NCBI GenBank assembly: GCA_004369045.1
Contig: ML213542.1
Location: 54,170 to 118,169 of the forward strand
DNA length: 64,000 bases
Source: Heliocybe sulcata
Taxonomy: Eukaryota; Basidiomycota; Agaricomycetes; Gloeophyllales; Gloeophyllaceae
Direction of reading: 5' to 3'
Positions 3,009 through 55,288 of this stretch are shown here, piece by piece. Position 1 is the first letter of the stretch, and each line of letters opens with the position of its first letter. The notes beneath the pieces were generated by a model. The model was not told where the DNA came from. It saw only the letters and a list, made by a program, of their open reading frames with translations, and did no database searches. Position numbers and translations under genes: made by a program.

Positions 3009-4715
3009 ATGTACGCCGCCGCTACTACCGCCAACGCTGCCACCATGAGCGCTCCTGTTCCTAGGGAGCCCGCAGGTCTTAGCATCGCCATCGAAGTAGT
3101 CATAAGCTTCTCCTTCTTAGTCGTCCTCCTCTTCTTGTCTGCCAAGTACTGGCATGTCTGCTTCCCCTCCTATGGTGCCGAGCCTCGTCAAGTAGTCTGC
3201 CCCCCTCGCGCGTACCAGACAGAGGTGCTGCCCAGGACCATTGCGGAAGCGGTATGTGCAGCATATGATCAACATATCTGATCGTAACTGATGCAGCTTC
3301 AAGGTGAACGAGAAGTCGAACGGGACAGCGATTTCCTCGGAGAGCTCGTCGATACGTCGTTGGTTTAGCAGAAAGGTACGTTGGAGGATTCGACTCGATC
3401 CACGAGGATCTGATCATTTACTTGTACCTGTAGAGTACTGTCGTTTGTACCGAGGGGGAGGCACCGGTACGTCTCTCCTTCGAGGATGTGTAACAGGTCG
3501 CTGACATGCAGTTATCGCACAGATGGACGAGACGGTACCACGTGCTTGGAAGGCCAAGTGGATTGCGATGCGCACCTGGCTTGCACAAAGGGTACGTCAA
3601 ACGAGCTCTCTCCTTCTCGTCCAACGGTTGAGTGACAAGTACTACAGGGTCTTGCGATCCGATGGTTTTTCGCTAGCATCGGGAACTGCATCCTCCGCGT
3701 CTTGCGTATCCGACCCACACTATCCCTCATCTCCCCCTCCGGCAACGCTCTCCCACTGCCCTCCACTGTCTCCGATGTCGGCCAAAACATGGTATCCGAG
3801 ATTCCACAGCAGGACACCAGGCGGCTGACGGCCCAGACCTGGGTCAGTTGGTTATGGTGGCACCAGCAGGACGTCGACGAGCGACTGGAAGCCGAGATGG
3901 CGGGTCTAGCGAACTCGGGCGACAACGCGGATACCGGATCGAGGTCATCTGTCTTCGGCTTACTTACGAGCGTGTTCGACTCCTGGTCTGACTGGTCTAT
4001 CCCCACTATGAGCGCCGCTACTGTCCCCGGTCAGCCCATGTCCGGGGGTGAAGACGTTCTTTCTACGATGGAGGGTGCAGCTAACTCAGGCAACACAGGA
4101 TCACGGTCGTCGCTCCTCAGCTTACTCTCAAAGGAGTTCGACGCCTGGTCCGACTGGTTCTTCGACACCATGAACGCCGCTACTGTCCCTGGTCAGTCTA
4201 TGTCCGGGGGTGAAGGTGTTCTCCCTACTCCATCTACTCGCCTGTCGACAATCCCAGAGGAAGACGAAGAGGAATCTCCCGTCATGCCCGGTACTCTTCC
4301 TGAGAACTCTATGACCACTGCCGCCGCCGACGACAAGACCCGCGTTGCCGACGCTAGCTACCTGGAAGAGGAAGATATCACCACGCTCTACTACACCTCT
4401 AACGCGCTCTCCCTCGCTGAAGAAGGCCAGTCCCCACCCGCGAAGAAGGACGCGATCCTCCCCAGCTCCTGCAAAGTCGACATCACGGACCTCCTCGAGC
4501 GCTCCTCCCGCCCTATATCGTTTGTCCCGGGTACGCCACTGAAGAACGACGCGGTCCGCTTCACGCCTCGGCCTCGCCAGATCCCGGAGCTCAAGATGGA
4601 GGAGGTGGTCGCGCGCCCTGTGATCCCCAGGATCTACGTCGGTCGGCACAGGATCTACGCACCGCGGAGAGCCCCGCCCGCTGTAAGGATGCCTGAGCGG
4701 GGCGTCTGGCTCTAA
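3009..4715 (+). CDS. M-family single-pass membrane protein, copy A
   Basis: I do not recognise this family. Exons 3009-3251, 3304-3375, 3434-3466, 3523-3591 and 3648-4715 splice in frame to 494 residues. Residues about 22-46 form one hydrophobic segment after a short Ala/Thr-rich N-terminus, so a type III or signal-anchor topology is likely. Next comes a basic SIRRWFSRK exon, a variable 11-residue exon, a WKAKWIAMRTWLAQR exon, and an amphipathic GLAIRWFFASIGNCILRVLR helix followed by SPSGNALPLPSTVSDVG. Two tandem repeats of about 55 residues (FDSWSDW...AATVPGQPMSGGE) occupy about 3930-4230. The tail holds acidic EEEDITTLYY and the near-invariant FVPGTPLKNDAVRFTPRPRQ, ending PERGVWL. Exon 2 needs the acceptor CTTCAAG/GTGAAC; the acceptor 7 nt upstream would hit a stop. 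Start chosen because TATA lies 57 nt upstream, as in the paralogues. Confidence 0.75.
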
Positions 4716-5710
4716 GGAGGCGTATGGAGGTGACGGTATGGGGAGGTGGAGGCGGGGTGGGGCGGGAGGGAAGAAGAAAGTCAAGAAAAGAAAAAACGCC
4801 TATGTCAAGTCTCAGCTCGTGTCAAGTTCAAATTTCGTATCAAGTTTCCATATCCTCGGCCGCGTTCTTCTTCAAAGCGTTCCGAGGGTTTCGTTGTTTG
4901 GCTTTTGGGAGCATCGGTATAATCTTCTATTGCGCGCTTGTTTCGAGAGTCGTCCATCCACTGTAGCCCAGCACTCATGCACGCACCATCCTACCACGCT
5001 CGTCCTGCCCACCGTCCAACTCCTTGGTCCAGAACCCCGACGCAGTCCCTCTCCTGGACCACTCAGGGAAGCTCATCCATGTTACGACGCTGCTGACACA
5101 GGTGGTGCGAGAGGACTTGATCACCCTCTTGCACCAGCGCCGGGGACTTGATCACCCCTGGCGCCCTTGGCTGAGTTGCACCTGTGCTCGGCCTTGGCCT
5201 TTCAGCGTCGCACTGTCTGACGGGGGACGTCCGTGATAGCGGGCGGACTTGCCAGTCGGTTAGGCGCGGTTCTTCGCTTGGATGCGGTCGCAAAGCCGAA
5301 GCTTGTGGCGGACGGTCTGGAATCCGACCTGAAGCCATGGACGACCGGCGTCTTCACGTGGACGGGCGAGCGGTTAGGACTTGGGATACGAGCCGTCACG
5401 CGCATGTCAATCAACCCGCGACGGCAACGCTCGAGAAGGCCTTCAAGCTTCAATCCCATCTCATCATATCCCTTGGACGCGCTAGATGGCTCGGTAACGG
5501 CTGGAAGTGGCGGAGGTGGCACGGATGCTGAGTTGAAGTGGATAGTCGTCTCAGGAAGCTTGCGCGCGATAGAAGATTGTTCCGGTGTTGGATGTTCCAG
5601 TATAGTTATAGCTTCACATTCCCTAGTTGTACGCTTTTCATTTATGATTTGGAGATGAGTTTTCACGCGGCCCCGGAGGGAGGGAAGTCGTAAGGATCGA
5701 TACAGATTGT
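4716..5710 (+). repeat. Conserved 3' flank of M gene A (S element)
   Basis: About 0.9 kb directly after the stop is repeated after M copies B, C, D and E. Landmarks are a purine-rich run after the stop, CCTCGGCCGCGTTCTTCTTC, AGCATCGGTATAATCTTCT, the double hairpin, GACTTGCCAGTCGG, GATACGAGCCGTC and a final GGAGGGAGGGAAGTCGTAAGG. Reading frames inside it are not conserved between copies, which argues against a protein. It probably contains the 3' UTR and poly(A) region and possibly a separate RNA. Confidence 0.7.
5104..5164 (+). other. Tandem hairpin pair HP1/HP2 with a shared loop
   Basis: HP1 (5104-5135) pairs GGTGCGAGAGG with CCTCTTGCACC; HP2 (5137-5164) pairs GCGCCGGGG with CCCCTGGCGC. 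Both enclose the same loop, ACTTGATCA. The two imperfect pairs are G-T in the sense strand, that is G-U in RNA but A-C on the other strand, which points to function as RNA read in the direction of the M gene. It starts 389 nt after the stop codon of copy A. Confidence 0.65.
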
Positions 5711-6550
5711 GGCAAGGTATTACATCCTTCGCTGGAATGCCCAGGCGCGGCTCAAAGTGAAGGAAGTCAACTCATTCCAAATCTCATTATCAGGCGCGGA
5801 GGTTGCTGTGCGAACTCGAGTTTTAGACATCTCGATGCACGGTGCTTTATTGAGTCGATAGTCCCGTAGTGCTTGACATGAATCGTCGGGGACTGGAAGG
5901 AAAGGCCATTTCGCGCACCAGCGCCAAAAATATGGCAGATAAGAAAAGAAGACGACCATCATTGATGAATGCATTTCGTTGAGGATTTCTGTGGCGGAAC
6001 TGAAACTTAAGCCACAACGCGGGTAAGGGTATTTGGATACATGTGGGTGTCACGTGATGCGAGACGAGAATCGCTGTCCTCAATTTCGATTGTTATCTTG
6101 GTCCATATAACGGTCGCATCACCTTCCTCTAATTGCAGTATTGCCTAGTGGTACTGCCTAGGAGGGTTCAAATGCGACGGTGGCCCTTGCAATGGCATCG
6201 ATATCCAATACTTACCTATCCCCGTGAACGTGACCGTGCATGTGATCTTGTGACTCGTCCGCTTGGCACCACTACGTACACACTGCCCACCTCTAACTCG
6301 GACTCAAATTGAAGGGACAAGTCTCTGACAACTCGGCTGACTGGATGTACGGGGCGGCGTGGCGACCTTCTGAAATCATGCGCCTGCGCAGAAGCGGAAT
6401 AGAGTGGGTTATATTTGCTATCGTAACGTAATATCTGGGCCAGCTCGCCCCATGCTTCGAAACCTGGAGTCCTGGCCATCCGAGCAATCGCGTCCTGGCC
6501 GTAGCGGTCGCCAGTTCATCCTCTGTCTCTCAAGTAGCAAATTGGATCCT
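5711..6550 (+). promoter_or_regulatory. 5' region of F-box gene F1, with an insertion
   Basis: The stretch is homologous to the regions upstream of F2, F3 and F4. It has one CACGTG (6051-6056), where F2, F3 and F4 have two. In F1 about 370 bp (roughly 6130-6505) interrupt the alignment between TCCATATAACGG and CCTCTGTCTCTCAAG, so the CACGTG lies about 500 nt from the ATG instead of about 100-160 nt. Part of the insert recurs near 53.9-54.1 kb. Confidence 0.55.
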
Positions 6551-8054
6551 ATGTCTCTGAACGAATCAAGGCTTGCTATGAGCCGCACCATCGAACCGGA
6601 AACTCAGCTAGATCTGCGGGACCTTTCGTTGAAGGTGAGCAGGAATGTCGTAGTCAGTGGGTCAATCTTTACAAGTGCTAACCCATGGGCGAATGAAGGC
6701 TGATCATGGCAAGACGGACGTCGGACATCTTTTCCCAGAGCTACTACACGCGATATTCAGCTTCGCCTTCAACACCCTTGGCAACGATTTCGCGACCCTT
6801 CCCAGGGCCCATGCCGAGTCGTCCTGGCTGTCTCTGGGTGACAAGATATCCTGCAGTATGGTGTGCAAGCCCTGGAGGGATGCTGCAGTCCCGATGCTGT
6901 ACGATCATGTGGTACTGCATTATGGCTCACAGCTAGTCAGTTTCCTCAGGACACTCAACAGCGGGTCCGACTCATTCGACTATAGGAGAATGGTCAAAAG
7001 CCTAAATGTGGATTTCAATGGCCATTGCACTGTACTTCATCAGATATTGGAGGACATACTGTTGCTGTGTCCCAATCTAGCCGCGCTGGCATACCACCCG
7101 TCGCAGAGAACTATATTATCTGACGAATCAGTACCTCTCAAGCGACTTGATCCATATTTGCTTACTCGCCTCTCGCTTGGGGGATACATAGAGTCAACGT
7201 CTGACTCGCTGCGATCCTTTCAAGAAGTATCCCGACTGCAAGTGAGGTCATCGCAGAGGAATCACCCTGTTAGCCTCCCCCACGTTACGACTCTTTTCCT
7301 GACCTTGGAGTCTAGTGTGACATCTATTCATGCATTGTCGACTCCATCCTTAACAAGTCTTTCGATCAATTTTACCACCCCCTGGAATGATGACCCTTGC
7401 CAGGTGATACGGGAAATCACCGCGACCATAGGCCAATCTCTGCAGTTCCTGGATATTGCTTGGGATTGGGAGGGGGATAATGATGGTGGAACGCCTGGCA
7501 TCTTTGATCTGAATATCATCGAACCTTGCCAAGTGCTGCGTCATCTGGTTGTACGTGGCGTATCCTCCTTCGTCGGCACCCATGCCAGCATCCGCTTCAT
7601 CGACGTATGGCGGGATCTCATATCTATGCATGAATGGAGGGAGGCAGAGCAGCTTGATCCGGAGGAGTTCATTGAGAATCAACTTCAGGTTGAGCTACTA
7701 CGCCCGCATCTCCCCAACATTGCCAGAGTCAGGGTTTTCGACAGCTTTCTTCGAGATTGTATTCCCGACCTTCCCGCTATCTTACTTCCTATGGGATGCA
7801 AGGACACAGGTCGACGAGTACACGTCCTCGACTGCGTCATCTGGGACACCCCGGCGATGGTTTTCGAGGAGTCTAGACTTGACCGAAAGGAGAGAGGAGT
7901 TCCTCTACCTCATATCATCGACGAATTTGTGTCGAAAGCGTACAAATATCTGGGCGTCAGTATTCCCGACTTCTCTGGTGTAGGCCTCAGTGATTGGGAG
8001 ATCGAGGACACCGGCAGCCCGGAGTTATCCGAATATGAATCATATGACGATTGA
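6551..8054 (+). CDS. F-box protein, copy F1
   Basis: This is a probable substrate receptor of an SCF ubiquitin ligase. Exons 6551-6634 and 6699-8054 give 479 residues. Residues about 36-95 form an F-box-like domain: HLFPELLHAIFSF, then SCSMVCKPWRDAAVPMLYDH. The remainder has leucine-rich, repeat-like spacing (LPHVTTLFLTLES, TPSLTSLSINF), as is usual for basidiomycete F-box/LRR proteins whose targets are unknown. The intron acceptor GAATGAAG/GCTGAT is conserved in F2-F4. Here the intron is 64 nt, so splicing is needed for one reading frame. The acidic C-terminus ends ELSEYESYDD. It lies head-to-tail behind M copy A. Confidence 0.75.
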
Positions 8055-11328: not shown

Positions 11329-13407
11329 ATGAACGCTACCGCTATCAACACCGTCAACGACCCTGCGGAGCGTGCGTCCATCGTGAACACCGTCGCACTC
11401 TTTGTCGGTATCTTCTTCTTCATCCTCTTGGTCTCCCTTGTGTGTTCGCCCTCCTTGGCTGCACTTGAACCGTATGACTCCTGGATTTATGCCCGTCAAA
11501 TGGCTCAACTCCGCGAGGAGGCTTTGTCCGGGACCACTGAGGAAGCAGTACGTCTATCGAGTGTTTGTAACAGCTCTTCATAATTGACGAAATATTAAGG
11601 TCGAGGAGAAGTTGGAAGATGTGACACAGACTCCCTCTGTTCCCGCTGACAAAGAGGCAATGGTAAGTCTACAACGTCGCTTCTATATACCAAGGTGGCT
11701 GACATCAAGCCTCCTGCAGGACGACAAAGTAGATCAAGCCCGCACCTGGAAGGACAGGCGGACCCATGTTCGCGACTGGCTGGTACGACGGGTACGTCAA
11801 ATCATCTCCCCTTGCGAACTATCTACCCACATGTATCACAGCGCCTTGCGATCCGCTGGTTCTTTGCGAGCATCTGGAGCTGCATCCTCCGCGTCTTCCG
11901 TATCCAACCCACGCTGATCCTCACATCTCCCTCCGGAAATGCCCTTCCTCTGGCGTCTACTGTCTCAAACATCTGCCGCGACACGGTATCCGAAATCCCA
12001 GAGACTATCAACGAGAAGGACATGTCGGAAGGAACAGGTGCATCGCCGGTCCGGGAGAGAACTTGGATACGTCGTTGGTTTAGCAAGAAGGTATGTCTGG
12101 CGAATTGGTTTCATTCACGAGGATTTGATCATTGATTGTTACTCTCAGAATTCCACTGTTCTTGCTCAGGAGAAAGCGTCGGTACGTGTTCTCTTTGACA
12201 GTGCATAACCTTCGAGCTGACATGTGGTCATCGTACAGAGGGACAAGACAGAAAGCCGTACTTTGAAGGACCGCTGGAGTGCTATGCGCACCCGGCTTGC
12301 ACGAAGCGTACGTGCCATAGATTCTCTCATCCAAGCATTGACTAATAGGCGCCGTAGGGTCTCGCGATCCGCTGGTTCTTTGCCAGCATCGGGAACTGCG
12401 TCCTCCGCGTCTTGCGCATCCACCCCACACTATCTCTCACCTCCCCCTCCGGCAACGCCCTCCCACTGCCCTCCACTGTCTCGGATGTTGGCCAAAACAT
12501 GGTATCCGAGATCCCTCAGCAGGACGCCAGGCGGCTGACGGCCATGACCTGGGTTAATTGGCTGTGGTGGCACCAGCAGGATGTTGACGAGCGGCTGGAA
12601 GCGGAGATGGCGGGTCTAGCGGACTTGGGAAGCAACATGGATACGGGATCGAGGTCGTCTATCTTCGGCTTGCTCACGAGTGTGTTCGACTCCTGGTCCG
12701 ACTGGTCCATCCCCGCTATGAGCGCCGCTACTGTCCCCGGTCAGCCTATGTCCGGGGGTGAAGGTGTTCTTTCTACGATGGAGGATGCAGCCAACTTGGG
12801 CAACACAGGATCAAGGTCTTCGCTCCTCAGCTTACTCTCGAAGGAGTTCGACACCTGGTGCGACTGGTTCTTCGACACTATGAACGCCGCTACTGTCCCC
12901 GGTCAGCCTATGTCCGGGGGTGAAGGTGCTCCTCCTACTAGATCCAGCCGCCTGTCGACGATCCCAGAGGAAGATGAAGAGTCTCCCGTTATGCCCGGTA
13001 CTCTTCCCGCTAACAGTGCCGATGACAAGACCGCCGTTGCCGACACTAGCTACCTGGAAGAGGAAGATATCACCACGCTCTACTACACTGCTAAGGCACT
13101 CTCTCTCGCTGAAGAAGGCCAATCCGCTTCCGCGAAGAAGGACGCGATGGTCCCCAGCTCTTGCAAAGTCGACATCACGGACCTCCTCGCGCGCTCCTCT
13201 CGCCCTATATCGTTTGTCCCGGGTACGCCACTGAAGAACGACGCGGTCCGCTTCACGCCACGGCCTCGCCAGATCCCGGAGCTCAAGATGGAGGAGGTGG
13301 TCGCGCGCCCTGTGATTCCCAGGATCTACGTCGGTCGGCACAGCATCTATGCGCCGCGGAGAGCGCCGCCCGCCGTCAGGATGCCTGAGCGGGGCGTGTG
13401 GTTCTAG
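11329..13407 (+). CDS. M-family membrane protein, copy B (two-module form)
   Basis: Family unknown. Exons 11329-11547, 11600-11662, 11720-11791, 11842-12090, 12149-12181, 12239-12307 and 12358-13407 join to 584 residues. The N-terminus differs from copies A and C: MNATAINTVNDPAERAS, then a hydrophobic segment at about 18-39. The basic-helix module occurs twice: RTWKDRRTHVRDWLVRR then LAIRWFFASIWSCILRVFR, and RTLKDRWSAMRTRLARS then GLAIRWFFASIGNCVLRVLR, each followed by SPSGNALPL. The tail matches copy A through RPRQIPELKMEEVVARPVIP to PERGVWF. The end of exon 4 (INEKDMSEG...RRWFSKK) corresponds to exon 2 of copies A and C, so the one-module genes look like recombinants carrying another membrane exon. 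No disabling change seen. Confidence 0.75.
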
Positions 13408-14345
13408 GAAGGTGTGGGAGGTGATGGCGTGGGGAGAGGAGTAGGGTGGGGGCGGGGGTGAGGAAAGAAGAAAAGAAAAAAAAAACATATCTCAAGTCTC
13501 GGCTCGCATCAACTTCAACTTTCGTATCAAGTTTCCATATCCTCGGCCGCGTTCTTCTTCAAAGCGTGCCGAGGGTTTCGTGTTTGGCTTTTGGGAGCAT
13601 CGGTATAATCTTCTTATTGCGCGCTTGTTTCGAGAGTCGTCTATCCACTGCACCCCAGCACTCATGCACCGTCCTACCACACTCTTCCTGCCGCCGTCCA
13701 ACTCCTTGGTTCAGAACCCCGACGCAGTCCGTCTCATGGACCACTCATGCTGCTGACACAGGTGGTGCGAGAGGACTTGATCACCCTCTTGCACCAGCGC
13801 CGGGGACTTGATCACCCCCGGCGCCCTTGGCTGAGTTGCACTTGTGCTCGGCCTTGGCCTTTCGGCGTCGTGCTAGATGATGGGGGACGCCCCTGATAGC
13901 GCGCGAACTTGCCAGTCGGCTGAGCGCAGTTTTTTGCTTGGAGTGCCCTGCTCCTTAGGTGGCGGATGGTCTGGACGTTTACCTGGAGCTATGGACAGGC
14001 GGCTTCTTCACGCAGATGGACGAGTGGTTAGCATTTGGGATATGAGTCGTCGGTCGCATGTCAATCACCCCGCGACTGCCAGACCCGACGAAGCCTTCAA
14101 GGTCAAATCCCACCTCATCATTCCCCTGGACGCGTTCGGTGGCAGGGTAACGGTTGGAGGTTGAGGAGGTGGCGCGAATGCTGGGTGAAGTTGATAGTCG
14201 TCTCGAGAAGCTTGCGCGCGATAGAAGATTATCTCGCTGTTGGATGGTTACCTTTATTTATAACTTCATATCCCGTAGCTGTACGTTTTGATTTCCAATT
14301 CGGAGGTTTTCAGGCGACCTTTAAGGGAGAGAACTCGTAAGGATG
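13408..14345 (+). repeat. Conserved 3' flank of M gene B (S element)
   Basis: It matches the flank of copy A from the CDS end to the GGGAGAGAACTCGTAAGGAT segment. A short deletion lies before the hairpins (near 13738-13750), where copy A has GGGAAGCTCATCCATG. Confidence 0.7.
13764..13824 (+). other. Tandem hairpin pair HP1/HP2
   Basis: HP1 is 13764-13795 and HP2 is 13797-13824, separated by one base. HP2 is fully paired here (GCGCCGGGG with CCCCCGGCGC). It starts 357 nt after the stop of copy B. The loops are both ACTTGATCA. Confidence 0.65.
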
Positions 14346-15663: not shown

Positions 15664-17210
15664 ATGTCTCTAAACAACTCAATGCCTGCCATGAGCTGTA
15701 CCATCGAACCAGGAGCTCAGCTAGATGATCTGAGGTATGGTCTGCGGGACCCGTCATTGAAGGTGAGTCGGTATGTTTCAGCTAGTGAGTCAATCTTTAC
15801 AAGTGCTGACCCCATGGGCGAATGAAGGCTGATTATGGCAAGACGGACGCCGGACTTCTTTTCCCAGACCTACTACACATAATATTCAGCTTCGCCTTCG
15901 ACAGCCTAGGCAATGGCTTTGCGACCCTTCCCAAGGCCCGTGCCGAGTCGTCCTGGCTATCTCGACGCTACAAGGCGTCCTGTAGTATGGTGTGCAAGCA
16001 CTGGAGGGATTCTGCAGTCCCAATGCTGTACGGTCATGTCGTACTACGTCGTGACTGGCAGCTATTTCGTTTCCTCAGGACACTCAACAGCCGGTCCAAC
16101 TCATTCGCTTATAGGAGAATGGTCAAAAGTCTTGTTGTGGATCTCGATAATGGTTACGGTTCCGCCGGATCTTTTGCTGATCACATGATGGGGGAGCTAC
16201 TATTGTTGTGTCCCAATCTAGCCGAGCTGGCGTACAGCCCGTCACAGAGGACTAGATTATCTGACGAAGCAGTATCACTCATCGAGCGGCTTGATCCATC
16301 TTTGGTCACTTGCCTCGCGCTTGGAGAGAAAATAGACGCAACCCCTGACTTGCTACAATTCCTTCAGGAATTACCCCGACTACAAGTGCTGTCTTTGCAC
16401 TCTGGACGTCAGCTATTCCAGACGCTGAGGAAACACCCTGTCAGCCTCCCCCATGTCACGACTCTGTCCCTGACCTTGGACTCTAACGTGACATCTGGTT
16501 TTGCATTATCGACTCCATCCTTGACAAGTCTTTCGATAAGTTTTGGCCCCTCCTGGACTGATAACCCTAATGAGGTAATTGGCGAAATCACCGCGACCGT
16601 AGGCCAATCTCTGCGATACCTGGATATCGCTTGGGAGGACGCTTACGACAGTAAAATCCCTGGCATCTTTGATCTAAATGTGCTCGAACCTTGCCATGCG
16701 CTGCGTCATCTAGTTGTATGTGGTGTATCCTCCTTCGTCGGCACCCATGCTACCATCCGCTTCTTCGACGTATGGCGACATCTCATGTCTATGAGTGAAT
16801 GGAGGGAGGCGGAGCAACTTGATCCGGACGAGCTCATCAAGAATCAACTTCACGTTGAGCTACTACGCGCGCACCTCCCCAACATTGTCAGCATCAGGGT
16901 CTTCGACAACTCTCTTCGACGCTCGATTCCCGATCTTCCGACCATCTTATCTCCCATGGGATGCGAGCACAGAAGCCTACGAGTACACGTTCTTGGCAGC
17001 ATCATCTGGGACACCCCGACTATGGTCTTCGACGAATCTCGACTCGACCAAAGACGTGGAGGAGTTCCTCTACGTCATAGTGTTGACGAGTTTGTGTCGA
17101 AATACAAATATCTGGGCATCACCATTCCAGACGAGTCTGATTCAGATTCAGATGTTGAGGGATGGGAGGTTGGGGACACCGGGAGCACAGTGTTCTCCGA
17201 ATATGAATAA
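15664..17210 (+). CDS. F-box protein, copy F2
   Basis: Exons 15664-15762 and 15828-17210 give 493 residues. The F-box-like part reads LLFPDLLHIIFSFAF and SCSMVCKHWRDSAVPMLYGH. Leucine-rich spacing follows (LPRLQVLSLHSG, LPHVTTLSLTLDS). It is closer to F3 than to F1: F2 and F3 share the run RQLFQTLRKHPVSLPH and the phrase EAVSLIERLDPSLVTCL. The 65-nt intron is at the same place as in F1. The acidic end reads DESDSDSDVEGWEVGDTGS. It is followed within about 620 nt by M copy C on the same strand. Confidence 0.75.
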
Positions 17211-17832: not shown

Positions 17833-19525
17833 ATGTACACCGCCGCTACTACCGCCAACACTGCCGCCACGAGCGCTCCTGTTCCTAGGGAGCCCGCAGG
17901 TCTTAGCATCGCCATCGAAGTAGTCATAAGCTTCTCCTTCTTGGTCGTTCTCATCTTCTTGTCTGCCAAGTACTGGCATGTCTGCTTCCCCTCCTATGGT
18001 GCCGAGCCTCGTCAAGTAATCTGCCCCACTCGCGCGTACCAGACAGAGGTGCTGCCCAGGACCATTGCGGAAGCGGTATGTGCAGCATGCGATCAACATA
18101 TCTGATCGTAACTGATGGAGCTTCAAGGTGAACGAGAAGTCGAACGGGACAGCGATTTCCGCGGAGAGCTCGTCGATACGTCGTTGGTTTAGCAGAAAGG
18201 TACGTCGGAGGATTTGACTTGATTCACGAGGATCTGATCATTGACTTATACCTGTAGAGTACTCTCATTCGTACCAAGGGGGAGGAACCGGTACGTCTCT
18301 CCTTTGAGGATGTGTAACAGGTCGCTGACATGCAGTTATCGCACAGATGGACGAGACGGTACCACGTGCTTGGAAGGCCAAGTGGATTGCGATGCGTACC
18401 TGGCTTGCACAAAGGGTACGTCAAACGAGCTCTCTCCTTCTCGTCCAACGGTTGAGTGACAAGTACTACAGGGTCTTGCGATCCGATGGTTCTTCGCTAG
18501 CATCGGGAACTGCATCCTCCGCGTCTTGCGTATCCGACCCACACTATCCCTCACCTCCCCCTCCGGCAACGCCCTCCCACTTCCCTCCACTGTCTCGGAT
18601 GTCGGCCAAAACATGGTATCCGAGATCCCACAGCAGGCTGACGGCCATGACCAGGGTTAGTTGGCTGTGGTGGCACCAGCAGGATGTCGACGAGCGGCTG
18701 GAAGCCGAGATGGCGGGTCTCGCGAACTCGGGCAATAACACGGATACGGGATCGAGGTCGTCTATCTTCGGGTTACTTACGAGCGTGTTCGACTCCTGGT
18801 CCGACTGGTCTATCCCCACTATGAGCGCCGCTACTGTCCCCGGTCAGCCCATGTCCGGGGGTGAAGACGTTCTTTCTACGATGGAGGGTGCAGCCAACTC
18901 AGGCAACACAGGATCACGGTCGTCGCTCCTCAGCTTACTCTCAAAGGAGTTCGACGCCTGGTCCGACTGGTTCTTCAACACTATGAATGCCGCTACTGTC
19001 CCCAGTCAACTGGTGTCTGGGGGTGAAGGTGTTCTTCCTACTCGATCCACGCGCCTGTCGACGATCCCAGAGGAAGAGGAAGATGAATCTCCCGTCATGC
19101 CCGGTACTCTCCCCGCAAACTCCCCGACGGCCGCCGCCGACGACAAGACCCGCATCGCCGATACCAGCTACCTGGAAGAGGAGGACATCACCACGCTCTA
19201 CTACACTGCCAACGCACTCTCTCTCGCTGAAGAAGGCCAATCCCCTCCCACGAAGAAGGACGCGATGGTCCCGAGCTCTTGCAAAGTCGACATCACTGAC
19301 CTCCTTGCGCGGTCCTCCCGCCCTGTATCATTTGTCCCGGGTACGCCACTGAAGGACGACGCGGTCCGCTTCACGCCTCGGCCTCGCCAGATCCCGGAAC
19401 TCAAGATGGAGGAGGTGGTCGCACACGCTGTGATTCCGAGGATCTATGTCGGTCGGCACCGCATCTACGCGCCGCGGAGAGCGCCGCGCGCCGTCAGGAT
19501 GCCTGAGCATGGGGTCTGGTTTTAA
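17833..19525 (+). pseudogene. M-family copy C, frameshifted by an 11-nt deletion
   Basis: Exons 17833-18075, 18128-18199, 18258-18290, 18347-18415 and 18472-19525 correspond one to one to copy A and are nearly identical over the first four. In the last exon copy C lacks 11 nt (GACACCAGGCG in copy A) after CCACAGCAG, near 18637. Normal splicing then runs into TAG about 20 nt later, removing both repeats and the conserved tail. If the 56-nt intron before exon 5 is retained, the frame stays open from 18347 to 19525 and regains the tail (56-11 is divisible by three). Exon 3 differs from copy A mainly by amino-acid changes (STLIRTKGEEP against STVVCTEGEAP). It may be dead or make a variant protein; the sequence alone cannot decide. 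Confidence 0.65.
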
Positions 19526-20485
19526 GGGGGCGTTTAGCGGTGACGGTATGGGGAGGCGGGGGGTGGGAGTGGGCGGGAGGAGTGAAGAAAATCAAGCAAA
19601 GAAAAAACCCATATCTCAAGTCTCGGCTCGTGTCAAGTTCAAATTTCGCATCAAGTTTCCATATCCTCTGCCGCGTTCTTCTTCAAAGCGTCCCGAGGGT
19701 TTCGTCGTTGGGGTTTGGGGAGCATCGGTATAATCTTCTTATTGCGCGCTGGCTTCTAGAGTCGTCTATCCATTACAGCCCAGCACTCATGCACCATCCT
19801 ACCACGCTCTCCCTGCCCGCCGTCCAACTCCTTGGTCCGGAACCCCGACGCAGTCCGTCTTGTGGACCACTCAGGGAAGCTCGTCCATGCTGAACGACGC
19901 TGCTGACGCGGGTGCTGCGAGAGGACTTGATCACCCTCTCGTACCAGCGCCGGGGACTTGATCACCCCCGGCGCCCGAGGCTGAGTTGCACTTGTGCTCG
20001 GCCTTGGCCTTTCAGCGTCGCACTGGATGACGGGGGACGCCCCTGATAGCGGGCGGACTTTCCAGTCGGTTAGGCGCAGTTCTTCGCTTGGATGCGGTAG
20101 CAAAGCCGAAGCTTGTGGCGGGCGTCTTCACGTGAATGGGCGAGTTGCCAGAACTTGGGATACGAGCAGTCGGTCGTCCGTCAATCATACGGGGACCGCA
20201 ACGCTCGACAAGGCCTTCAAGGTGCAATCCCACCCCCTCGCCCCCATAGACGCGTTCGGTGGCAGAGTAGCGGTTAGAGGTTGGGGAGGTGGCACGGATG
20301 CTGGGTTGACGTGGATAGTCGTCTCAGGAAGCTTGCGCGCAGCAGAAGATTGTTTCGGTGTTGTATGTTCCGTTGTAGTTATAGCTTCACACCCCGTAGT
20401 TGTACACTTTTCATTATGGTTCAGAGAACAGTCTCACGCAACCCCGGAGGGAGGGAACTCGTAAGCATCGATATAGATTCTCGCA
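19526..20485 (+). repeat. Conserved 3' flank of M copy C (S element)
   Basis: It matches copies A and B throughout, with a deletion between GCTTGTGGCGGGC and GTCTTCACGTG where copy A has a further stretch. It runs tail-to-tail into gene K1. Confidence 0.65.
19911..19974 (+). other. Tandem hairpin pair HP1/HP2
   Basis: HP2 (19947-19974) is fully paired. HP1 keeps its inner stem CGAGAGG/CCTCTCG, here with a perfect C-G where copies A and B have G-U. The outer arms changed to TGCTG and GTACC, so they pair only partly. It starts about 386 nt after the stop codon. Confidence 0.6.
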
Positions 20486-27700: not shown

Positions 27701-27919
27701 ATTGCTCCGTCCCATGCTATGGTCTCCCAGGATCCTGTGCAAACGCTCGTCCCGCAAAGCGAAGCGAATCATATGTGCTCGGATGGTTCGCCTTCGCCGC
27801 CACTCCGAGGCCGGGTGACAACGTTGGACGGGCCTACAGGCCACTGAGAGCTCTCGGGAAATTGCCTTCGAGTCAGCGGCTGGCAGGTCTTCCTTCCAGA
27901 CATCAGCGTAATGGCCAAG

Positions 27920-27978
27920 GGCCGGGGATGATCAGTCCCCGGCCGGTACGAGGGGGTGGGCCCACCCCTTCTCGTACC
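27920..27978 (-). other. Hairpin pair downstream of G, diverged HP1/HP2
   Basis: On the minus (sense) strand, GGTACGAG pairs with CTCGTACC (27978-27945) around an inner perfect palindrome GGGGTGGGCCCACCCC. GGCCGGGGA then pairs with TCCCCGGCC (27944-27920) around CTGATCA. Order, adjacency and the GATCA loop match HP1/HP2 of the M copies, and CCTTGGCC follows as it does there. It starts 367 nt after the G stop. The fourth HP1 pair is A-T here but G-C in copies A, B and D, a compensatory change. Confidence 0.6.
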
Positions 27979-28344
27979 ACCTCCTGCTGCGCACTGGGTT
28001 TTGTCGTATCGAGTCCTCCGTATGGGGGGAAGGGGGCAAGTAAATCTATGCCGGACGAGGGACGTCGATGCGAGTGGAGGTGTAGAGGGGGGTGAAGGGA
28101 AAGAGCCGATGCAGGGCGAGGTGGTGTGTGATACGTGTGGATATTCGAGTTTGGGAACGAACGTGCGACGGCGAGAATATAACGATACCGCAGAATACCC
28201 AAGAAATAGCCTCGGGACGCGCGGAAGAGGGATGACATGCGACCCGGTGAGCAACGAGATCTTGAGACGGTACGAGACTTGATATGCATTTATTATTTGT
28301 ACGAGCGTTCTGAACTTCTTCTGGGTGTGGAGGAGTGTTGGTAG

Positions 28345-31169: not shown

Positions 31170-32219
31170 CAATCTATATCAATGCTTACGAGTTCCCTCC
31201 TTGCGGGGTCGCGAAAAGTGTCCTCTAAACCATATAAATAAAGACTGTACACCTACGGGAAGTGAGGCTATAACTACACCGGAACATCCAACACCGAAGT
31301 AATCTTCTATCGCGCGCAAGTTTCTCGAGACGATTATCCACTTGAACCCAGCATACACGCCACCTCGGCAACGTCTAGTCACCCAGCGCACCCAAGGGAG
31401 ATATTGAGGCGGGAGTGAACCTCAAAGGCCTCGTCGAGCCTCCTCATTGCGGGGTAATTGGCATGCGAACGACGACTCGTATCCCAAGCCATAGCTAGTC
31501 GCCCACCAATGTGAAGACGCCGCATGTCCACGGATAGTCCAGCCCATCCGCCACCCAAGGAGCAGGACACTACAGAAGAAGAACCGCATTCAACCGACTG
31601 GCAAGTTCGCGCGCTATCAGGGGCGTCCCCCATCATCTAGCGCGACGCCGAAAGGCCAAGGCCGAGCACAAGTGCAACTCAGCCAAGGGCGCCGGGGGTG
31701 ATCAAGTCCCCGGCTCTGGTATGAGAGGGTGATCAAGTCCTTTCGCACCACCGGTGTCAGCAGCGTCGTACCTTGGATGAACTTGCGTCGGTAGTTGACG
31801 AGAGAGACTGCGTCTAGTTTCTGGGACGAGGAGTTGGACGGCGGTGGGCAGCGAGAGTGGATGCAGATGATGCTGGGGCGCATCCTCGAAGGCGTGGCAG
31901 GATGGAGTCCCGGACGACTGGACGGTGCATGAGTGCCGGACTGCCGTGGATAGACGACTCTCGAAACAAGGGCGCAGTAAGAAGACTATACCGATGCTCG
32001 CGAAAGCCCAATGAACAAACCCTCGGAACGCTTTGAAGACGAACGCGACCGACGGTATAGAAACTTGATACGAAACTTGAAGTTGATGTAAAACGGGACT
32101 TGAGATATGGAACTGTTCTTTCTTGATTGTTTTTGGATTTGATTTTTTTCTTCCTCTTTCCTCACCACCCCTCCCCCCGTCCCACGTCCTCTCCCCATGC
32201 CGTCGCCTGCACGCGCCCC
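31170..32219 (-). repeat. Conserved 3' flank of M remnant E (S element)
   Basis: It aligns on the minus strand with the flanks of copies A-D over its whole length, including the segments around the hairpins and the final GGAGGGAACTCGTAAGC. It carries more differences than the others, including an extra insert near 31800-31900. Confidence 0.65.
31689..31749 (-). other. Hairpin pair HP1/HP2, eroded
   Basis: HP1 (31749-31718) and HP2 (31716-31689) keep the ACTTGATCA loops, but both stems now contain mismatches (for example A opposite G in HP2 and two unpaired positions in HP1). This fits loss of constraint behind a truncated gene. Confidence 0.55.
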
Positions 32220-33401: not shown

Positions 33402-34968
33402 TCATTCGGTGCGATAACCCAAGAAATTCTCATCTGATTCATATTCGGAGGACACTGGGCTGCCAGTGTCATCGAACTCCCAATCATGGACGTCTGCATC
33501 AGGGACGTCGGGAATATTGATGCCCAGATACCTGTACGCTTCCGACACGAATTCGTCGACGATATGAGGTAGAGGAGGAAGTCCTGCACGCCTTGGGTCC
33601 AGTTCGAATTCGTCAAAAACCATTGTCGGGGTGTCCCAGATGATTCTACCAAGAACGTGTACTCGTACGCTTTTGTCATTGCGTCCTATGGGAAGTAAGA
33701 TGGTCGGAAGGTCGGGAATCAAATGTCGAAGAAAGCTGTCGAAAACCCTGACGCTGGCAATGTTAGGCAGGTGCGCGCGTAGTATCTCAACCTGTAGTTG
33801 ATTCTCTATCAGCTCCTCCGGCTCAAGCTGCTCCGCCTGTCTCCATTCATCCATGAATATGAGATCTCGCCATACGTCGAGGAACCGGATAGTAGGATGG
33901 GTGCCGACGAAAGACGATACACCGCGTACAACCAGATGACTCAGCGCATGGCAAGGTTCGAGCACATTTAGATCAAAGATGCCAGGCATTTCACTGTCGC
34001 CATCCTCCTCCCAATCCCAAGAAATATCCAGGTATCGCAGAGATTGGCCAACTGTCGCGATGATTTCGCCAATTACCTCATCAGGGTTATCATTCCAGGA
34101 GGGGCCAAAACTCATCGAAAGACTTGTCAAGGATGGAGTCGATAATGCAAAACCAGATGTCACGTTAGAGTCCAAGGTCAGGGAAAGAGTCGTGACATGG
34201 GGGAGGCTGACAGGGTGTTTCCTCAGCGTCTGGAATAGCTGACGTCCAGAGTGCAAAGAGAGCACTTGTAGTCGGGGTAATTCCTGCAGGAATTGTAGCA
34301 AGTCAGGGGTTGAGTCTATTTTCTCTCCAAGCGAGAGGCAAGTGACCAAAGATGGATCAAGCCGCTCGATGAGTGATACTGCTTCGTCAGATAATCTAGT
34401 CCTCTGCGACGGGTTGTACGCCATCTCGGCTAGATTGGAGCACAGCGATAGTATGTCCATAATCTGATGATGAGCATCAGGTACGGTCACATGCTCGCTG
34501 AGATCCACAAGAAAACTTTTGACCATTTTCCTATAAGCGAATGAGTCGGACTGGCTCATGAGTGTCCTGTGGAAACTGGATAGCTGCGAGCTACGGCGTA
34601 GTACGACATGATTGTACAGCATCGGGACTGCAACATCTCTCCATGGCTTGCACACCATACTGCAGGACATCTTGTCATCTAGAGATAGCCAGGACGACTC
34701 GGCACGAGCCCTGGGAAGGGTCGCAAAGCCATCGCCAAGGCTGTTGAAGGCGAAGCTGAATATCGTGTGTAGTAGCTCTGGGAAAAGATATCCGGCGTCC
34801 GTCTTGCCACGAACGGCCTTCATTCGCCCATGGGTTAGCTCTCGTGGAGATTCATCCACTGACTGCGACATTCCTGCTCACCCTCAATGAACGGTCCCGT
34901 AGATCATCTAGCTGACTTTCTGGTTCGATGGTACGGCTCATGCCAGGCATTGAAGTGTTCAAAGGCAT
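33402..34968 (-). CDS. F-box protein, copy F3
   Basis: Exons 34968-34882 and 34817-33402 give 500 residues. F-box part: YLFPELLHTIFSFAF and SCSMVCKPWRDVAVPMLYNH. The middle is almost identical to F2 (RLQVLSLHSGRQLFQTLRKH), while the C-terminal part differs (PDVPDADVHDWEFDD). Exon 1 ends TTGAGG/GTGAGC, where the others have TTGAAG/GTGAGC. It lies downstream of M copy D on the minus strand, the mirror of the M copy B and F2 pair. It is a likely SCF substrate receptor of unknown target. Confidence 0.75.
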
Positions 34969-35389: not shown

Positions 35390-36338
35390 TGTATCAATCC
35401 TTACGACTTCCCTCCTTCCGGGGTCGCGTGAAAAGTGTTCTCTAAATCATGAATGAAAGATATACAACTACGGCATGTACAGCTACGGCTACATCGAAAC
35501 ATCCAACACCGAGATAATCTTCTATCGCGCGCAAGCTTCTCGAGACGACTACCCACTTGAACTCGGCATCCGTGCCACCTCAACCTCGAACCGTCACCCT
35601 GCCACCGAATGCGTCCAGGAGGTGGGATTAGACCTTGAAGGATTCGTTGGGCGTGACGGTCGCGGGGTAATTGGCAAGCGACCGACGGCTCGTATCCCAA
35701 GTCCTAGCCACTCGCCCGTCCACGTGAAAACGCCGCCTGTCCACGGACCCAGCTAGATTTCCAGACCGTCCGCCGCAAGATTTGGCTTCGCCACCAGGCT
35801 TAACCGACTAGCAAGTCCGCGCGCTATCAGGGGCGTCCCCTATCATCTAGCACAACGCTGAAAGGCCAAGGCCGAGCACAAGTGCAACTCAGCCAAGGGC
35901 GCCGGGGGTGATCAAGTCCCCGGCGCTGGTGCAAGAGGGTGATCAAGTCCTCTCGCACCACCTGTGTCAGCAGCGTTGCAGCGGATGAACCTGCCTCGGT
36001 AGTCGACGGGAGGGCTGCATCGGGTTTCTGGACCAAGGAGTTGGACGGCGGGCAGGAAGGGCGTGGCGGGTTGGTGTATGAGTGCTTGGCTACAGTGGAT
36101 AGACGACTCTCGAAGCAAGCGCGCAATAAGAAGATTATACCGATGCCCCAAAAGCCCCACAAAGAAACCCTCGGAACGCTTTGAAGATGAACGCGGCCGA
36201 GGAATGGAAACTTGATACGAAATTTGAACTTGACACGAGCCGAGACTTGAGATATGCATTTTTTCTTTTTTCATCTTCTCCCCTCACGCGCCCCCCCGCG
36301 CCCCCCGTCTCCCCACGCTGTCACCTCAACACGGCCCC
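35390..36338 (-). repeat. Conserved 3' flank of M copy D (S element)
   Basis: On the minus strand it matches copies A-C from the CDS end to the GGAGGGAAGTCGTAAGG segment. It is closest in detail to copy B. Confidence 0.7.
35899..35959 (-). other. Tandem hairpin pair HP1/HP2
   Basis: HP1 is 35959-35928 and HP2 is 35926-35899 on the minus strand. HP2 is fully paired, and HP1 has the same single G-U as copies A and B. It begins 380 nt after the stop of copy D. Confidence 0.65.
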
Positions 36339-38326
36339 CTAGAACCAGACGCCCCGCTCAGGCATCCTGACCGCGGGGGCAGGTCTCCGTGGCGCGTAGA
36401 CATTTCGACGGCCGACGTAAATCCTGGGAATCACAGGGCGCGTGACCACCTCCTCCATCTTGAGGTCCGGGATCTGGCGAGGCCGAGGCGTGAAGCGGAC
36501 CGCATCGTTCTTCAGTGGCGTACCCGGAACATACGATATAGGGCGGGAGGAGCGCTCGAGGAGGTCCGTGATGTCGACTTTGCAAGAGCTGGGGAGGATC
36601 GCGTCCTTCTTCGCGGGAGGGGATTTGCCTTCTTCAGCGAGAGAGAGTGCGTTAGTGGTGTAATAGAGCGTGGTGATATCCTCCTCTTCGAGGTAGCTAG
36701 CATCGGCAACGCGGGTCTTGTCGTCGACAGCGTTCTCGGGAAGGGTGCCAGGCATGGCAGGAGACTCCTCTTCGTCTTCCTCTGGGATCGTCGACAGGCG
36801 GATAGGTCGAGTAGGAAAAGCACCTTCACCCCCGGACACAGACTGACCGGGGACAGTAGCGGCGTTCATGGTGTCGAAGAACCAGTCGGACCAGGCGTCG
36901 AACTCCTTCGAGAGTAAGCTGAGGAGCGACGACCTTGATCCCGAGTTATTCGAGTTGATCTCCGCCTCCATCGTAGAAAGAACGCCTTCACCCCCGGACA
37001 TAGGCTGACCGGGGACAGTAGCGGCGTTCATGGCGCGGATGGACCAGTCAGACCAGGATTCGAACACGCTCGTAAGCAAGCCGAAGACAGACGACCTCGA
37101 TCCCGTATCCGCGTTATCACCCGAGTTTGCTAGAGCCGCCATCTCCGCTTCCAGCCGCTCGTCCACGTCCTGCTGGTGCCACCACAGCCAAGTGATCCAG
37201 GTCATGGCCGTCAGCTGCCTGGTGTCCTGCTGCGGGATCTCGGATACCATGTTCTGACCGACGTCGGAGATGGTAGAGGGAAGTGGGAGCGCGTTGCCGG
37301 AGGGGGAGGTGAGGGATAATGTGGGTCGGACACGCAAGACGCGGAGAATGTGGTTCCCGATTCTGGCAAAGCACCAGCGGATCGCGAGACCCTGCGTCAC
37401 TCTATTAAACAATGATTGGTCGAGAGAATTCATGAGACGTACCCTTTGTGCGAGCCAGGCGCATATAGCAATCCAGTGGTCCTTCCAAGTACGACTTTCT
37501 GACTGGCCGCTCTGTGCGATGACTACATGTCAGTCGTTGAGTTACACACCCTCAAAGGAAAGAGGTACCTTTCTGCTTAACCAACGACGTATCCAAGTTC
37601 TCTCCGGGGCCGGCGATGCACCTGTTCCTTCCGACATGTCCTTCTCGTTGATAGTCTCTGGGATTTCGGATACCGTGTCGCGGCAGATGTTTGAGACAGT
37701 AGACGCCAGAGGAAGGGCATTTCCGGAGGGAGATGTGAGGATCAGCGTGGGTTGGATACGGAAGACGCGGAGGATGCAGCTCCAGATGCTCGCAAAGAAC
37801 CAGCGGATCGCAAGGCGCTGTGCTATATGTAAGTAGATCGTTCGCAATGAGAGATGATTCGACGTACCCTTCGTGCAAGCCAGGTGCGAGCATAGGTCCG
37901 CCTGTCCTTCCAGGTGCGGCCTTGTTCTACCTTGACGTCCTACAGGCTCGATGTCAGCCACCGTGGTATATAGAGCGACGTTGTAGACTTACGATTGCCT
38001 CTTTGTCAGCAGGAACAGAGGGAGTCTGTGTCACATCTTCCACCTTCTCCTCGACCTGAATATCTCATCAATGACCGAGAGCTGGTGCAGCCACTTGATA
38101 CACGTACTGCTTCCTCAGTGGTTTCGGAGAAAGCCTCTTCGCGGAGTTGAGCCATTTGACGAGCATTAATCCCGGAGTCATACGGTTCAGGTCCAGCCAA
38201 GGAGGGCGAACACACAAGGGCGACGAAGAGGATGAAGAAGAAGATACCGACAAAGAGTGCGACGGTGTTCACGATGGACGCACGCTCCGCAGGGTCGTTG
38301 AGGGTGTTAACAGCGGTAGCGTTCAT
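36339..38326 (-). CDS. M-family membrane protein, copy D (two-module form)
   Basis: Exons 38326-38108, 38055-37993, 37939-37868, 37817-37569, 37511-37443 and 37391-36339 give 574 residues. Architecture is as copy B: hydrophobic segment at about 18-39, two basic-helix modules (RTWKDRRTYARTWLARR and RTWKDHWIAICAWLAQR), the two FDAWSDW-type repeats and the conserved tail. The 33-nt exon between the modules in copy B is absent. The two introns that flank it have become one of normal size, which fits a deletion between similar intron sequences and keeps the frame. No disabling change. Function unknown. Confidence 0.75.
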
Positions 38327-42100: not shown

Positions 42101-43492
42101 CCTCCGTCCAAACAGCCCACTGAGCATCCCACCCTTCTTTTTCTTCTCTCTCGACTCGTCTTCGCTCTCTCTTTCCTTGCGCAGCTTACCCGCGCCGCCC
42201 GCGCGCGACTCCGGAGTCGGCGAGCCCGTCTTCTCCTTCATCTTGTTTGCCCTCTTGCGCGCCTCCGCCTCCAGCGCCTCAATCTCCTCTCTCTGCCTCT
42301 TCCGCTGCTCCTCCTGCTGCCGCATGATATCGCTGGGCAGTAAGGGACCAGGGCTGGAGCCAGGAGATCCAGACTGCCCCTGCCTCTGCTGTTCGGCCAT
42401 TACACCATCCCGGACGATGGGAGGCGTGACGCTGAGCTTGACGGTATCAGTGGCTTGAGCTGGGTCCAGAGATCTCTGTGGGGAAGTCTGGGCGGCATCT
42501 CCACCAGCAGCAAGGCGGTCACGTGTGCTTAGGGTCTGCAGCAGGCCCGCCTGCTGCTGAGCCTGTTGGCCTTGATATTGCTGCGGGGAGACCTGAGGTG
42601 TGGGCGGTAGGGTCTGGGTGGCGGGCATTCCGGCGCGGGCTCGCTGTATCTCCTCGGCTGCACCGTCTTCCCAGCTCATGCCGTCGTCGGGTTCCATCAT
42701 GTTCGCATCTTCGCGGGGTTCGTCCAAGAGGTCCGGGTCTTCATCCTCGTACGGCTCGTCGTCCCATTCTACGTCTTCATCAAGTTCATCCTCGTCACCC
42801 CATACAGCGGGGGGATAGCGATGGACGTGGAATGAAGCTTGGAAGATGACTGATTTCGTTGACCGGGATCGTCGCAAACCACGTTCGGGTGTTGGGGATG
42901 GGGTTCCATTGCCTGCGCGTGACGAGAGATTGGTTCGGAGACGATCTTGCTGTTGGCGTACATCACCTTGCAGCTCGGCCTGCGTCGCTGATGATAACTG
43001 TGATGTATTTCATGAAGATTGCAATGACAATAAGCAATGAAGGATACTTACATCGACATTACGGTGCTTATTCAATCTGGCAAGACGTTCGAAGGGCGTC
43101 TCGATGTTTTCAGCGGGTATATATCCGACCTCTTGGGTCTTGAGAACTCGAACAAGCCACCAGTAGCTGTTACTGTCGTCCATCAGGAAAAGACTGTCAC
43201 CCTTCACGACGTTCGCCTGACCCTCCACGGTTGCTGCGAAGCTATGCAGCGCATACACAAGATCGAAGTCAATGGACTCATTGGGTATCGAGAGCTCAGA
43301 CGATCCGTCGTCCTCGTCAATGTAGTCCCCCTCTCCTTCCCCGTCAGAATCGTCTTCCAGGACCGAGTGTTCTTCATCCGAGGTGTAGTTGGCAGCTTCG
43401 GCATGCGCCTGCGCATGCTGTGCGTGGTCGTCCGCGAGCATCTGGTCCCTGAGATCGAATGTATCCTGGCGATGTGATCTTACACTTTGCAT
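39187..43492 (-). CDS. Bud14/Tea4-like polarity protein with SH3 and RA-type domains
   Basis: Yeast Bud14 and fission yeast Tea4 are cell-polarity scaffolds that recruit type-1 phosphatase and regulate formins. Exons 43492-43052, 42979-40681, 40629-39293 and 39237-39187 give 1375 residues with all phases consistent. An acidic N-terminus precedes an SH3 domain at about 77-133 (FDLVYALHSFAATVEGQANV, SYWWLVRVLKTQEVGYIPAE), followed by ETPFERLARLNKHRN, which is typical of this family. A long Gln/Ser/Pro-rich, partly coiled-coil region leads to a ubiquitin-like Ras-association-type domain at about 620-745 (IRVFAGTDLQTEATFKTVLL, DADDYYLTIKQVEG). A further conserved block (VFALPKNITVAEVIEMGLDM) follows, then a disordered tail. 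The last exon adds VLDELLRTTHPTIATF. Confidence 0.85.
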
Positions 43493-55149: not shown

Positions 55150-55288
55150 CTTTCTACGTGATGCAACCGGAGAAATGGCTGTCCGCGATTTCGATTATTG
55201 TTCTGGTCTATATCTCGGCCAAGGTACCTTCTTCCGGCCGCAGCATTGAACGTTTCTCCTCTGTATCTCAAGTGGCAAGCTGGATCCT

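Follow-up and report, generated by a model that had tools for sequence, protein, structure and literature searches.

The window, a 64,000-nucleotide stretch of Heliocybe sulcata DNA at the end of contig C40, carries five copies of one gene, which we call M (A to E, E being truncated), and a diverged relative, G. The M copies lie in duplicated blocks of mostly ~77-91% identity, and behind each of these six genes there is a pair of neighbouring hairpins (Table 1). Duplicated F-box-like or LRR-like genes are found among the M genes, at 6654-8054, 15810-17210, 33402-34877 (minus strand) and 55250-56770, with best Pfam matches of E 4e-5 to 0.014 that stay below the curated cut-offs. The cluster adjoins a large open frame (40643-43009, minus strand) with a Ras-association domain (PF00788, E 6e-13). 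A link between the F-box genes and the hairpins was rejected: the copy at 55250-56770 has an upstream region like that of A, but no M match and no element nearby. An inversion of G relative to the other copies was also rejected, as gene G itself lies on the minus strand and the orientation agrees.

Table 1. Coordinates of the element and of the genes that carry it. Positions without a contig name are those of the window.
Feature	Position	Strand	Remark
M copy A, main coding exon	3636..4715	+	open frame
M copy B, main coding exon	12358..13407	+	open frame
M copy C, main coding exon	18329..19525	+	open frame
M copy D, main coding exon	36339..37529	-	open frame
M copy E, 3′ part with stop codon	32220..32681	-	matches D residues 245-396
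Gene G, membrane-spanning N-terminus to stop codon	28345..29000	-	
Copy A, outer stem P0, 5′ side	5085..5092	+	CGACGCTG
Copy A, conserved block around element	5086..5209	+	15/123 ungapped columns variable, A-E
Copy A, HP1	5103..5136	+	12-bp stem, 10-nt loop ACTTGATCAC
Copy A, HP2	5137..5164	+	9-bp stem, 10-nt loop ACTTGATCAC
Copy A, third hairpin HP3	5165..5197	+	
Copy A, outer stem P0, 3′ side	5203..5210	+	CAGCGTCG
Copy B, HP1+HP2	13763..13824	+	
Copy C, HP1+HP2	19913..19974	+	one C-C mismatch in HP1
Copy D, HP1+HP2	35899..35960	-	outer stem CAACGCTG/CAGCGTTG, 35971-35978 with 35853-35860
Copy E, HP1+HP2	31689..31750	-	three broken pairs
Relative G, diverged HP1+HP2	27919..27978	-	HP1 loop GGGCCC for TGATCA; HP2 loop TGATCA
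N-family elements	C22:391472-391503; C23:356025-356056, 407059-407090, 435725-435761		loop coordinates
Shorter form behind third gene	C20:60548-60619		

The two hairpins have a constant layout. In A-E, and in four copies behind a second gene family, N, elsewhere in the genome, HP1 has 12-nt arms, HP2 has 9-nt arms, each has a 10-nt loop and the two abut, giving 62 nt in total. The loops have the form NNN-TGATCA-N, in which the dyad of TGATCA is displaced by one base from that of the arms. The first hairpin of copy A had been proposed earlier with 11 bp; it is present, but a T-A pair closes it, so that it has 12 bp, starts at 5103 and abuts HP2. The original prediction also held that twin hairpins with one and the same loop follow all five M copies, and this we can confirm. 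The sequence ACTTGATCA occurs 11 times in the window, against a mean of 0.66 and a maximum of 3 in 100 shuffles, and ten of these occurrences make up the five loop pairs of copies A to E. One more, at 47131-47139 on the minus strand, stands alone, and a covariance model built from A-E, searched at E up to 10, has no match there. The same model finds the pair behind G, a sequence it had not seen, at 27913-27979 on the minus strand (41.8 bits, E 2e-7), so the diverged pair claimed for this gene is also real. The fixed distance claimed between stop codon and HP1 holds for the five complete genes, at 355-387 nucleotides (A 387, B 355, C 387, D 378, G 366), but not for E, where it is 469.

The hairpins belong to a larger fold, which the original prediction did not include. 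An outer stem, P0 (CGACGCTG/CAGCGTCG in A), encloses the twin hairpins, with a third hairpin, HP3, between HP2 and the 3′ side of P0. HP3 occurs in the M copies, where its pairs are invariant across A-E and therefore provide no evidence of covariation. The outer stem of D has A-T in place of G-C, a compensatory change, while that of B has three G-U pairs (one in common with E) and one mismatch. A convincing outer stem was not found in G.

The element also extends beyond the window. The genome (31.6 Mb, 51 contigs) was searched, with counts that are lower bounds. Pattern searches and the reading of loci revealed four elements behind genes of the N family, either copies or remnants, and a shorter form behind a third gene, on contig C20, which lies 427 nt behind the stop codon and has the outer stem CACGACGCA/TGCGTCGTG. 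The total is 11 elements: A-E, G (which is outside the reach of TGATCA patterns), four N and C20. All 11 are in gene sense and lie 355-567 nt behind a stop codon. Pairs of TGATCA with 21-29 nt between them occur in at least 43 places in the genome, against 3 in a reversed control, and pairs with exactly 25 nt between (31 nt apart) occur in nine, all of which are M or N elements. A looser pattern, TGATNANCC...GGNN..TGATNANCC, gave ten matches, all of them known elements, with none in the reversed control. A single-hairpin pattern had 18 matches, ten of which were known elements; when the other eight were folded, one was a double hairpin (C20) and seven were without one. A pattern for the outer stem, whose gap range excludes the M copies, returned 32 rows (reversed control 1 and 2). 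The four N elements, matched on each strand, account for eight of these and C20 for one; the other 23, read by eye, include no element-like case among the matches listed.

Some of the TGATCA pairs sit in apparent copies of dispersed repeats (C4:1221989, C4:1223514, C6:87675, C6:88157, C22:111270, C22:111752 and C3:526311), and their inner letters are unlike those of the element. As a separate observation, the top of HP2, GGGGACTTGATCACCCC (17 bases), has exact matches in 108 stretches of viral contigs, perhaps in GC-rich coding sequence, to which we give no weight.

The M and N elements align without gaps over their 62 nt, and a model built from both finds G at E 3.5e-5. Plain sequence matches link B with N23b (score 41, shuffled maximum 27) and N23b with C20 (30, shuffled maximum 23); those of G with N23b and with C20 are not above shuffles. 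For the C20 element, the model built from M and N yields only 13.6 bits, with E 0.036 when 4 kb are searched and E 1 for 116 kb. What assigns it to the group is therefore its recovery by the pattern, its loop match with N, its outer stem and its position behind a stop codon. A stretch further downstream that is common to B, C, E and C20, GGGGGACGCCCC, is not significant by itself (26, shuffled maximum 28). In N, the outer stem GTGACGC/GCGTCGC is invariant, and one pair of the inner stem CAGG/CCTG is C-G, U-A or a C-A mismatch depending on the copy. The N copies have an additional hairpin downstream of the element, GCTCnnGGGGA-GACG-TCCCCnnGAGC (loci L035-L038), in which N23c has TA/TA, which pairs, where two other copies carry GA/GA.

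The genes that carry the element have little in common except architecture. No Pfam family was found at cut-off for these genes, and the main exons of A, C, D, N23c, C20 and C9 (the nearest relative of M off contig C40) have no match at E 0.1 and 1 either. Oxidored_q2 matches the first exon region of C20 below threshold (E 0.0035; 17.5 bits, with 26.1 required), and we take this to be a membrane segment that matches by chance. A membrane-spanning first exon is found in A, C, D, G, three N copies, C9 and C20; none was found for B and E within the 1.1-kb stretches scanned. The protein tails are long and, judged by eye, disordered-looking, so that most carrier genes look to encode a membrane-spanning first exon followed by such a tail. 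Beyond this the families hardly align. The N copies, like those of M, are duplicated, but M (D) and N (N23c) proteins have no credible BLASTP alignment (E 0.23), although the genome search gave short N-terminal matches to M on C22 and C23 (29-30% identity, E 4e-4 to 5e-4) that had looked like a relationship. M and C20 proteins share just 15 residues around SPSG (E 0.043). The C20 gene has a G-rich run of ~60 nt a few bases past its stop codon (L073:2628-2688), and G-rich stretches occupy the corresponding position in the M genes.

The element is better conserved than its surroundings. Counting ungapped columns only, for M and N alike, 7 of 61 columns of the A-E hairpin core are variable, compared with 325 of 827 in the rest of the aligned 3′ flank (4716-5740), and 15 of 123 across the whole block 5086-5209, compared with 317 of 765 outside it. 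The best 61-column window of the A-E alignment is 5139-5199, with 4 variable columns. This corresponds to HP2 and HP3, and we therefore attribute the conservation to the whole block and not to HP1 and HP2 alone. A second stretch of the flank, at 4806-4980, shows fair conservation too, with 41 variable columns out of 170. In a separate alignment of the N copies the core has 4 of 62 variable columns, compared with 204 of 734, and is the lowest of eight bins. Between G and each of A, B, C and D, the element is the best local match of the 3′ flanks (41-48, where 60 shuffles per comparison never exceed 28). Within a family, gene conversion might help to keep the copies alike; for the likeness between M and N this would hardly apply. 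Other pieces of 3′ flank are also held in common: M and C9 match at 39-44 (shuffled maxima 24-34), and C-G and D-G at 31 and 39 (shuffled maxima 26 and 28), A-G reaching only 24 against 25. The match of D with N23c is long and colinear, but weak (28 against 26), and that of M with C20 is largely a low-complexity G tract and is not relied on.

Covariation becomes visible when M and N are combined. In the alignment of A-E with the four N copies, 93.5% of 168 cells are paired (74.3% in shuffles), 34 cells are changed on both sides (17.1 in shuffles) and the covariation score is 0.51 (0.21 in shuffles); none of 500 shuffles reaches any of these values, although related sequences can beat shuffles without any structure. 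Changes on both sides affect 10 of 21 pairs, compared with 0-3 in slid-arm controls, but this count is not itself above shuffles (mean 9.2; 220/500 reach it). When B is compared with N23b, both sides have changed at 11 pairs, 9 of which stay canonical (P 0.013 if new letters are drawn at random); the remaining pairs differ on one side (1) or neither (9), and the two noncanonical pairs adjoin each other in the middle of HP1. Since the differences lie mainly between two clades, these figures count pairs and not independent events in many lineages. The slowest-changing feature is the loop palindrome with the stem tops, rather than the lower stems.

With the six copies of the window alone, covariation is weak: 2 of 20 pairs are changed on both sides, which 68 of 500 shuffles equal, and when the outer helices are included 88 of 500 shuffles reach the count. 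The N copies alone are not above shuffles either (362/500). One compensatory difference had been pointed out individually, at the fourth pair of HP1 (the fifth of 12), with G-C in A, B and D and A-T in G. This difference is real, and C and E have G-U there.

Imperfect pairs had been described as mostly G-U in the gene sense. The HP1 and HP2 stems of A-D and the four N copies contain 5 G-U, no A-C and 4 other imperfect pairs. Copy E adds 1 G-U, 2 A-C and 1 A-G. Outside HP1 and HP2, two N copies do have A-C mismatches: N22 and N23a in the inner stem, and N23a also in the downstream hairpin.

Predicted folding energies are lower than those of dinucleotide shuffles. For ten copies (all except C20, 200 shuffles each) the z-scores are -5.8 (A), -5.5 (B), -4.9 (C), -6.3 (D), -2.3 (E), -5.1 (N22), -2.4 (N23a), -3.6 (N23b), -3.7 (N23c) and -2.8 (G). 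The native energy is reached by 4 of 200 shuffles for E, 3 for N23a, 1 each for N23b and G, and none for the others. A loss of pairing in truncated copies had been proposed, and copy E agrees, with its three broken pairs and a z-score well short of the -4.9 to -6.3 of the other M copies. N23b does not: it is a gene remnant, yet the pairing of its hairpins matches that of its N relatives. The broken pairs of E would fit a loss of use, and the pairing of N23b speaks otherwise. Energy gives no consistent answer about the strand, with the 150-nt region folding better in sense than in antisense in 6 of 11 copies. The elements are near-palindromic, and opposite-strand matches to the M and N model are weak (best E 0.0016).

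We consider it probable that this is a structured RNA element acting in cis in the 3′ UTR of a group of fungal genes, a place in the mRNA and a mode of action that we infer from sequence. The position in gene sense, 355-567 nt behind all 11 stop codons, favours a 3′-UTR element, and the four added N copies (0/500 shuffles) make the case for a selected RNA structure, as put forward in the original prediction, a stronger one. The downstream flanks of two genes contain intron-like stretches, one just behind the stop of C9 and one behind that of C20 (L073:2911-2963, recognised by eye and missed by the intron pattern), which suggest that these 3′ UTRs are spliced. A coding exon was rejected on the grounds that TGATCA contains TGA on both strands, that a pair of these hexamers at the 31-nt spacing stops two of the three frames per strand, and that indels in the flanks shift frames.

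The element could instead be a non-coding RNA gene of its own, or an RNA cut out of the 3′ UTR, that accompanies M and N without being a cis element of their mRNAs. This would account for the conservation of the element beside the gene remnants E and N23b, for a conserved block of ~124 nt and for folding z-scores down to -6.3. We nevertheless think it unlikely. The element lies in gene sense, 355-567 nt behind a stop codon, in 11 of 11 cases, and parts of the 3′ flank upstream of the element are conserved as well. A scan of the whole window with Rfam (release 15) gave no match at the gathering threshold; the best sub-threshold match in 4600-5900 has E 4.9 and 16.6 bits, where 43.7 would be needed for gathering.

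Read as DNA, each hairpin forms an inverted repeat with TGATCA in its middle, and the patchy presence of the element among paralogues would suit a mobile unit. The element could then act as DNA, with paired inverted repeats that serve as protein-binding sites, form a cruciform or mark the ends of a mobile element. The evidence makes this quite improbable. The lower arms of M and N differ in sequence while their complementarity stays, which is unlike a site that is read by its sequence. The TGATCA dyad lies 1 nt off the arm dyad within 10-nt loops, and the loops of C20 and G differ. The departures from pairing in HP1 and HP2 are G-U and not A-C, by 5 to 0 in all M and N copies except E, although A-C does occur in other N helices. 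DNA and pattern searches, which give lower bounds, found the element only behind genes of the M, N and C20 type and no copy away from them. Taken together, the changing but complementary lower arms, the excess of G-U over A-C and the intron-like stretches favour an RNA read in the gene sense.

Quasi-palindrome correction by template switching can yield paired changes on both sides of a hairpin. Such a mutational process, switching between the arms of imperfect palindromes, could keep the hairpins perfect without selection on an RNA, but it leaves unexplained the fixed loop letters, the exact 31-nt spacing of the loops, the conserved block around the hairpins and the persistence of G-U pairs and internal mismatches, and we think it very unlikely. 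Least probable of all is ordinary shared ancestry, in which recently duplicated DNA holds hairpins by chance: the M and N copies are indeed duplicated, but the difference in rate between element and flank in both families already contradicts it, as do the element being the best flank match between A-D and G and its recurrence behind genes whose proteins hardly align.

The structured 3′-UTR element that we prefer is neither universal in the gene group nor found outside it, the searches being lower bounds. The C9 gene (C9:724912) has no element in the 1.4 kb behind its stop codon (best score 6.3 bits). Its locus (L019, C9:723412-726699) retains an M-like block of 3′ flank, ATATCC..TTCAAAGCGT.., and the double hairpin is absent from it. 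Two relatives of the C20 gene, C20b and C20c (43% and 34% identical to the C20 protein), have none in the 1059 and 1008 nt behind their stops, with a best model score of 8.5 bits (E 0.4), and none was found with a related fragment on C28, possibly an incomplete gene. No element came up in the genome searches for three N copies truncated at the 3′ end (C23:423710, also read directly, C23:428431 and C44:69091). The element is thus dispensable in C9, C20b and C20c, or has moved or been lost. Losses, or 3′ ends moving between paralogues, would explain its patchy presence.

The loops suggest what such an element might do. Together the 11 elements have 22 loops, and 20 of these contain the hexamer TGATCA. 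HP1 of G has GGGCCC instead and HP2 of C20 has TGATTA, and both are self-complementary if G-U is counted, although the predicted fold of G pairs part of its GGGCCC. In the transcript, P0 would hold two neighbouring hairpins, each displaying a self-complementary UGAUCA in its loop. These palindromic loops could act as kissing-loop stickers that join copies of the carrier mRNAs; alternatively, still within a 3′ UTR, a loop-binding protein may read the twin UGAUCA loops. In either case the outcome might be that transcripts are stored, localised or regulated together. We put this forward tentatively, as a possible function for the element. Between the two variants we favour loop-loop association, because loop palindromes underlie mRNA dimerisation in oskar and the dimers of retroviral genomes, with a loop-binding protein as the main alternative. 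More speculatively, two hairpins with identical loops could permit chains or networks beyond dimers.

A more far-reaching version, which we regard as doubtful, is that UGAUCA is a shared RNA ‘address’ in trans, through which the mRNAs of several fast-diverging membrane-protein families associate by kissing loops. If true, different transcripts could be stored, moved or translated together, and an RNA code would outlast the divergence of the proteins. The element would make it possible to ask, concretely and at low cost, if mRNAs of the cell associate via palindromic loops, as oskar does in the fly. It is also easy to recognise by its paired stems and the 31-nt spacing of its two TGATCA loops, and would serve as a marker with which this otherwise unannotated gene group could be traced in other genomes, recurring as it does behind genes whose proteins share little but their architecture.

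We found no description of this element among open-licence papers, which is no proof that none exists. Several known systems resemble parts of it. The purine riboswitch has an outer stem and two neighbouring hairpins with loops that are capable of pairing. The topology of our element is similar, but this is an analogy only, as its stems are unequal in length and it has no Rfam match in the window. The palindrome of the HIV-1 dimer initiation site (DIS) is off-centre, with more bases on its 5′ side, and in this the element resembles it. As described for the DIS, a six-nucleotide palindrome lies in an apical loop, flanked there by strictly conserved purines (PMC7357161). The loop of our element has 10 nt and its flanking bases are not strictly conserved purines, and we claim no sequence relation (PMC7357161).

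A closer parallel in a cellular mRNA is the dimerisation signal in the oskar 3′ UTR, a hairpin with the loop palindrome CCGCGG (Bose, Rankovic et al. 2024, PMC11567897). Our element, as a probable 3′-UTR structure, likewise has a six-nucleotide loop palindrome, UGAUCA, but where the oskar signal is described as one hairpin, we see two abutting hairpins with the same loop, a longer fold and palindromes richer in A+U (PMC11567897). Dimerisation has been measured for oskar (PMC11567897), whereas for our element we infer it.

Among fungal RNAs, the nearest comparison is a screen for conserved structures in Ascomycota genomes, in which each mRNA structure reported is tied to one gene (Gao, Jones and Rivas 2021, PMC8216456). 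As in that work, we have a conserved RNA structure by or in a protein-coding gene, assigned to a UTR through the direction of the gene, and some of the structures reported there likewise concern poorly characterised genes and a narrow phylogenetic range (PMC8216456). The words ‘kissing’ and ‘three-way junction’ are absent from the main text of that paper (PMC8216456). Its screen is of Ascomycota only, whereas our host is a mushroom-forming fungus, and here one structure recurs behind several gene families of a single genome (PMC8216456). In summary, we regard the element as a structured 3′-UTR RNA that is distinguished by its twin identical palindromic loops and by its recurrence behind protein families that can hardly be aligned.
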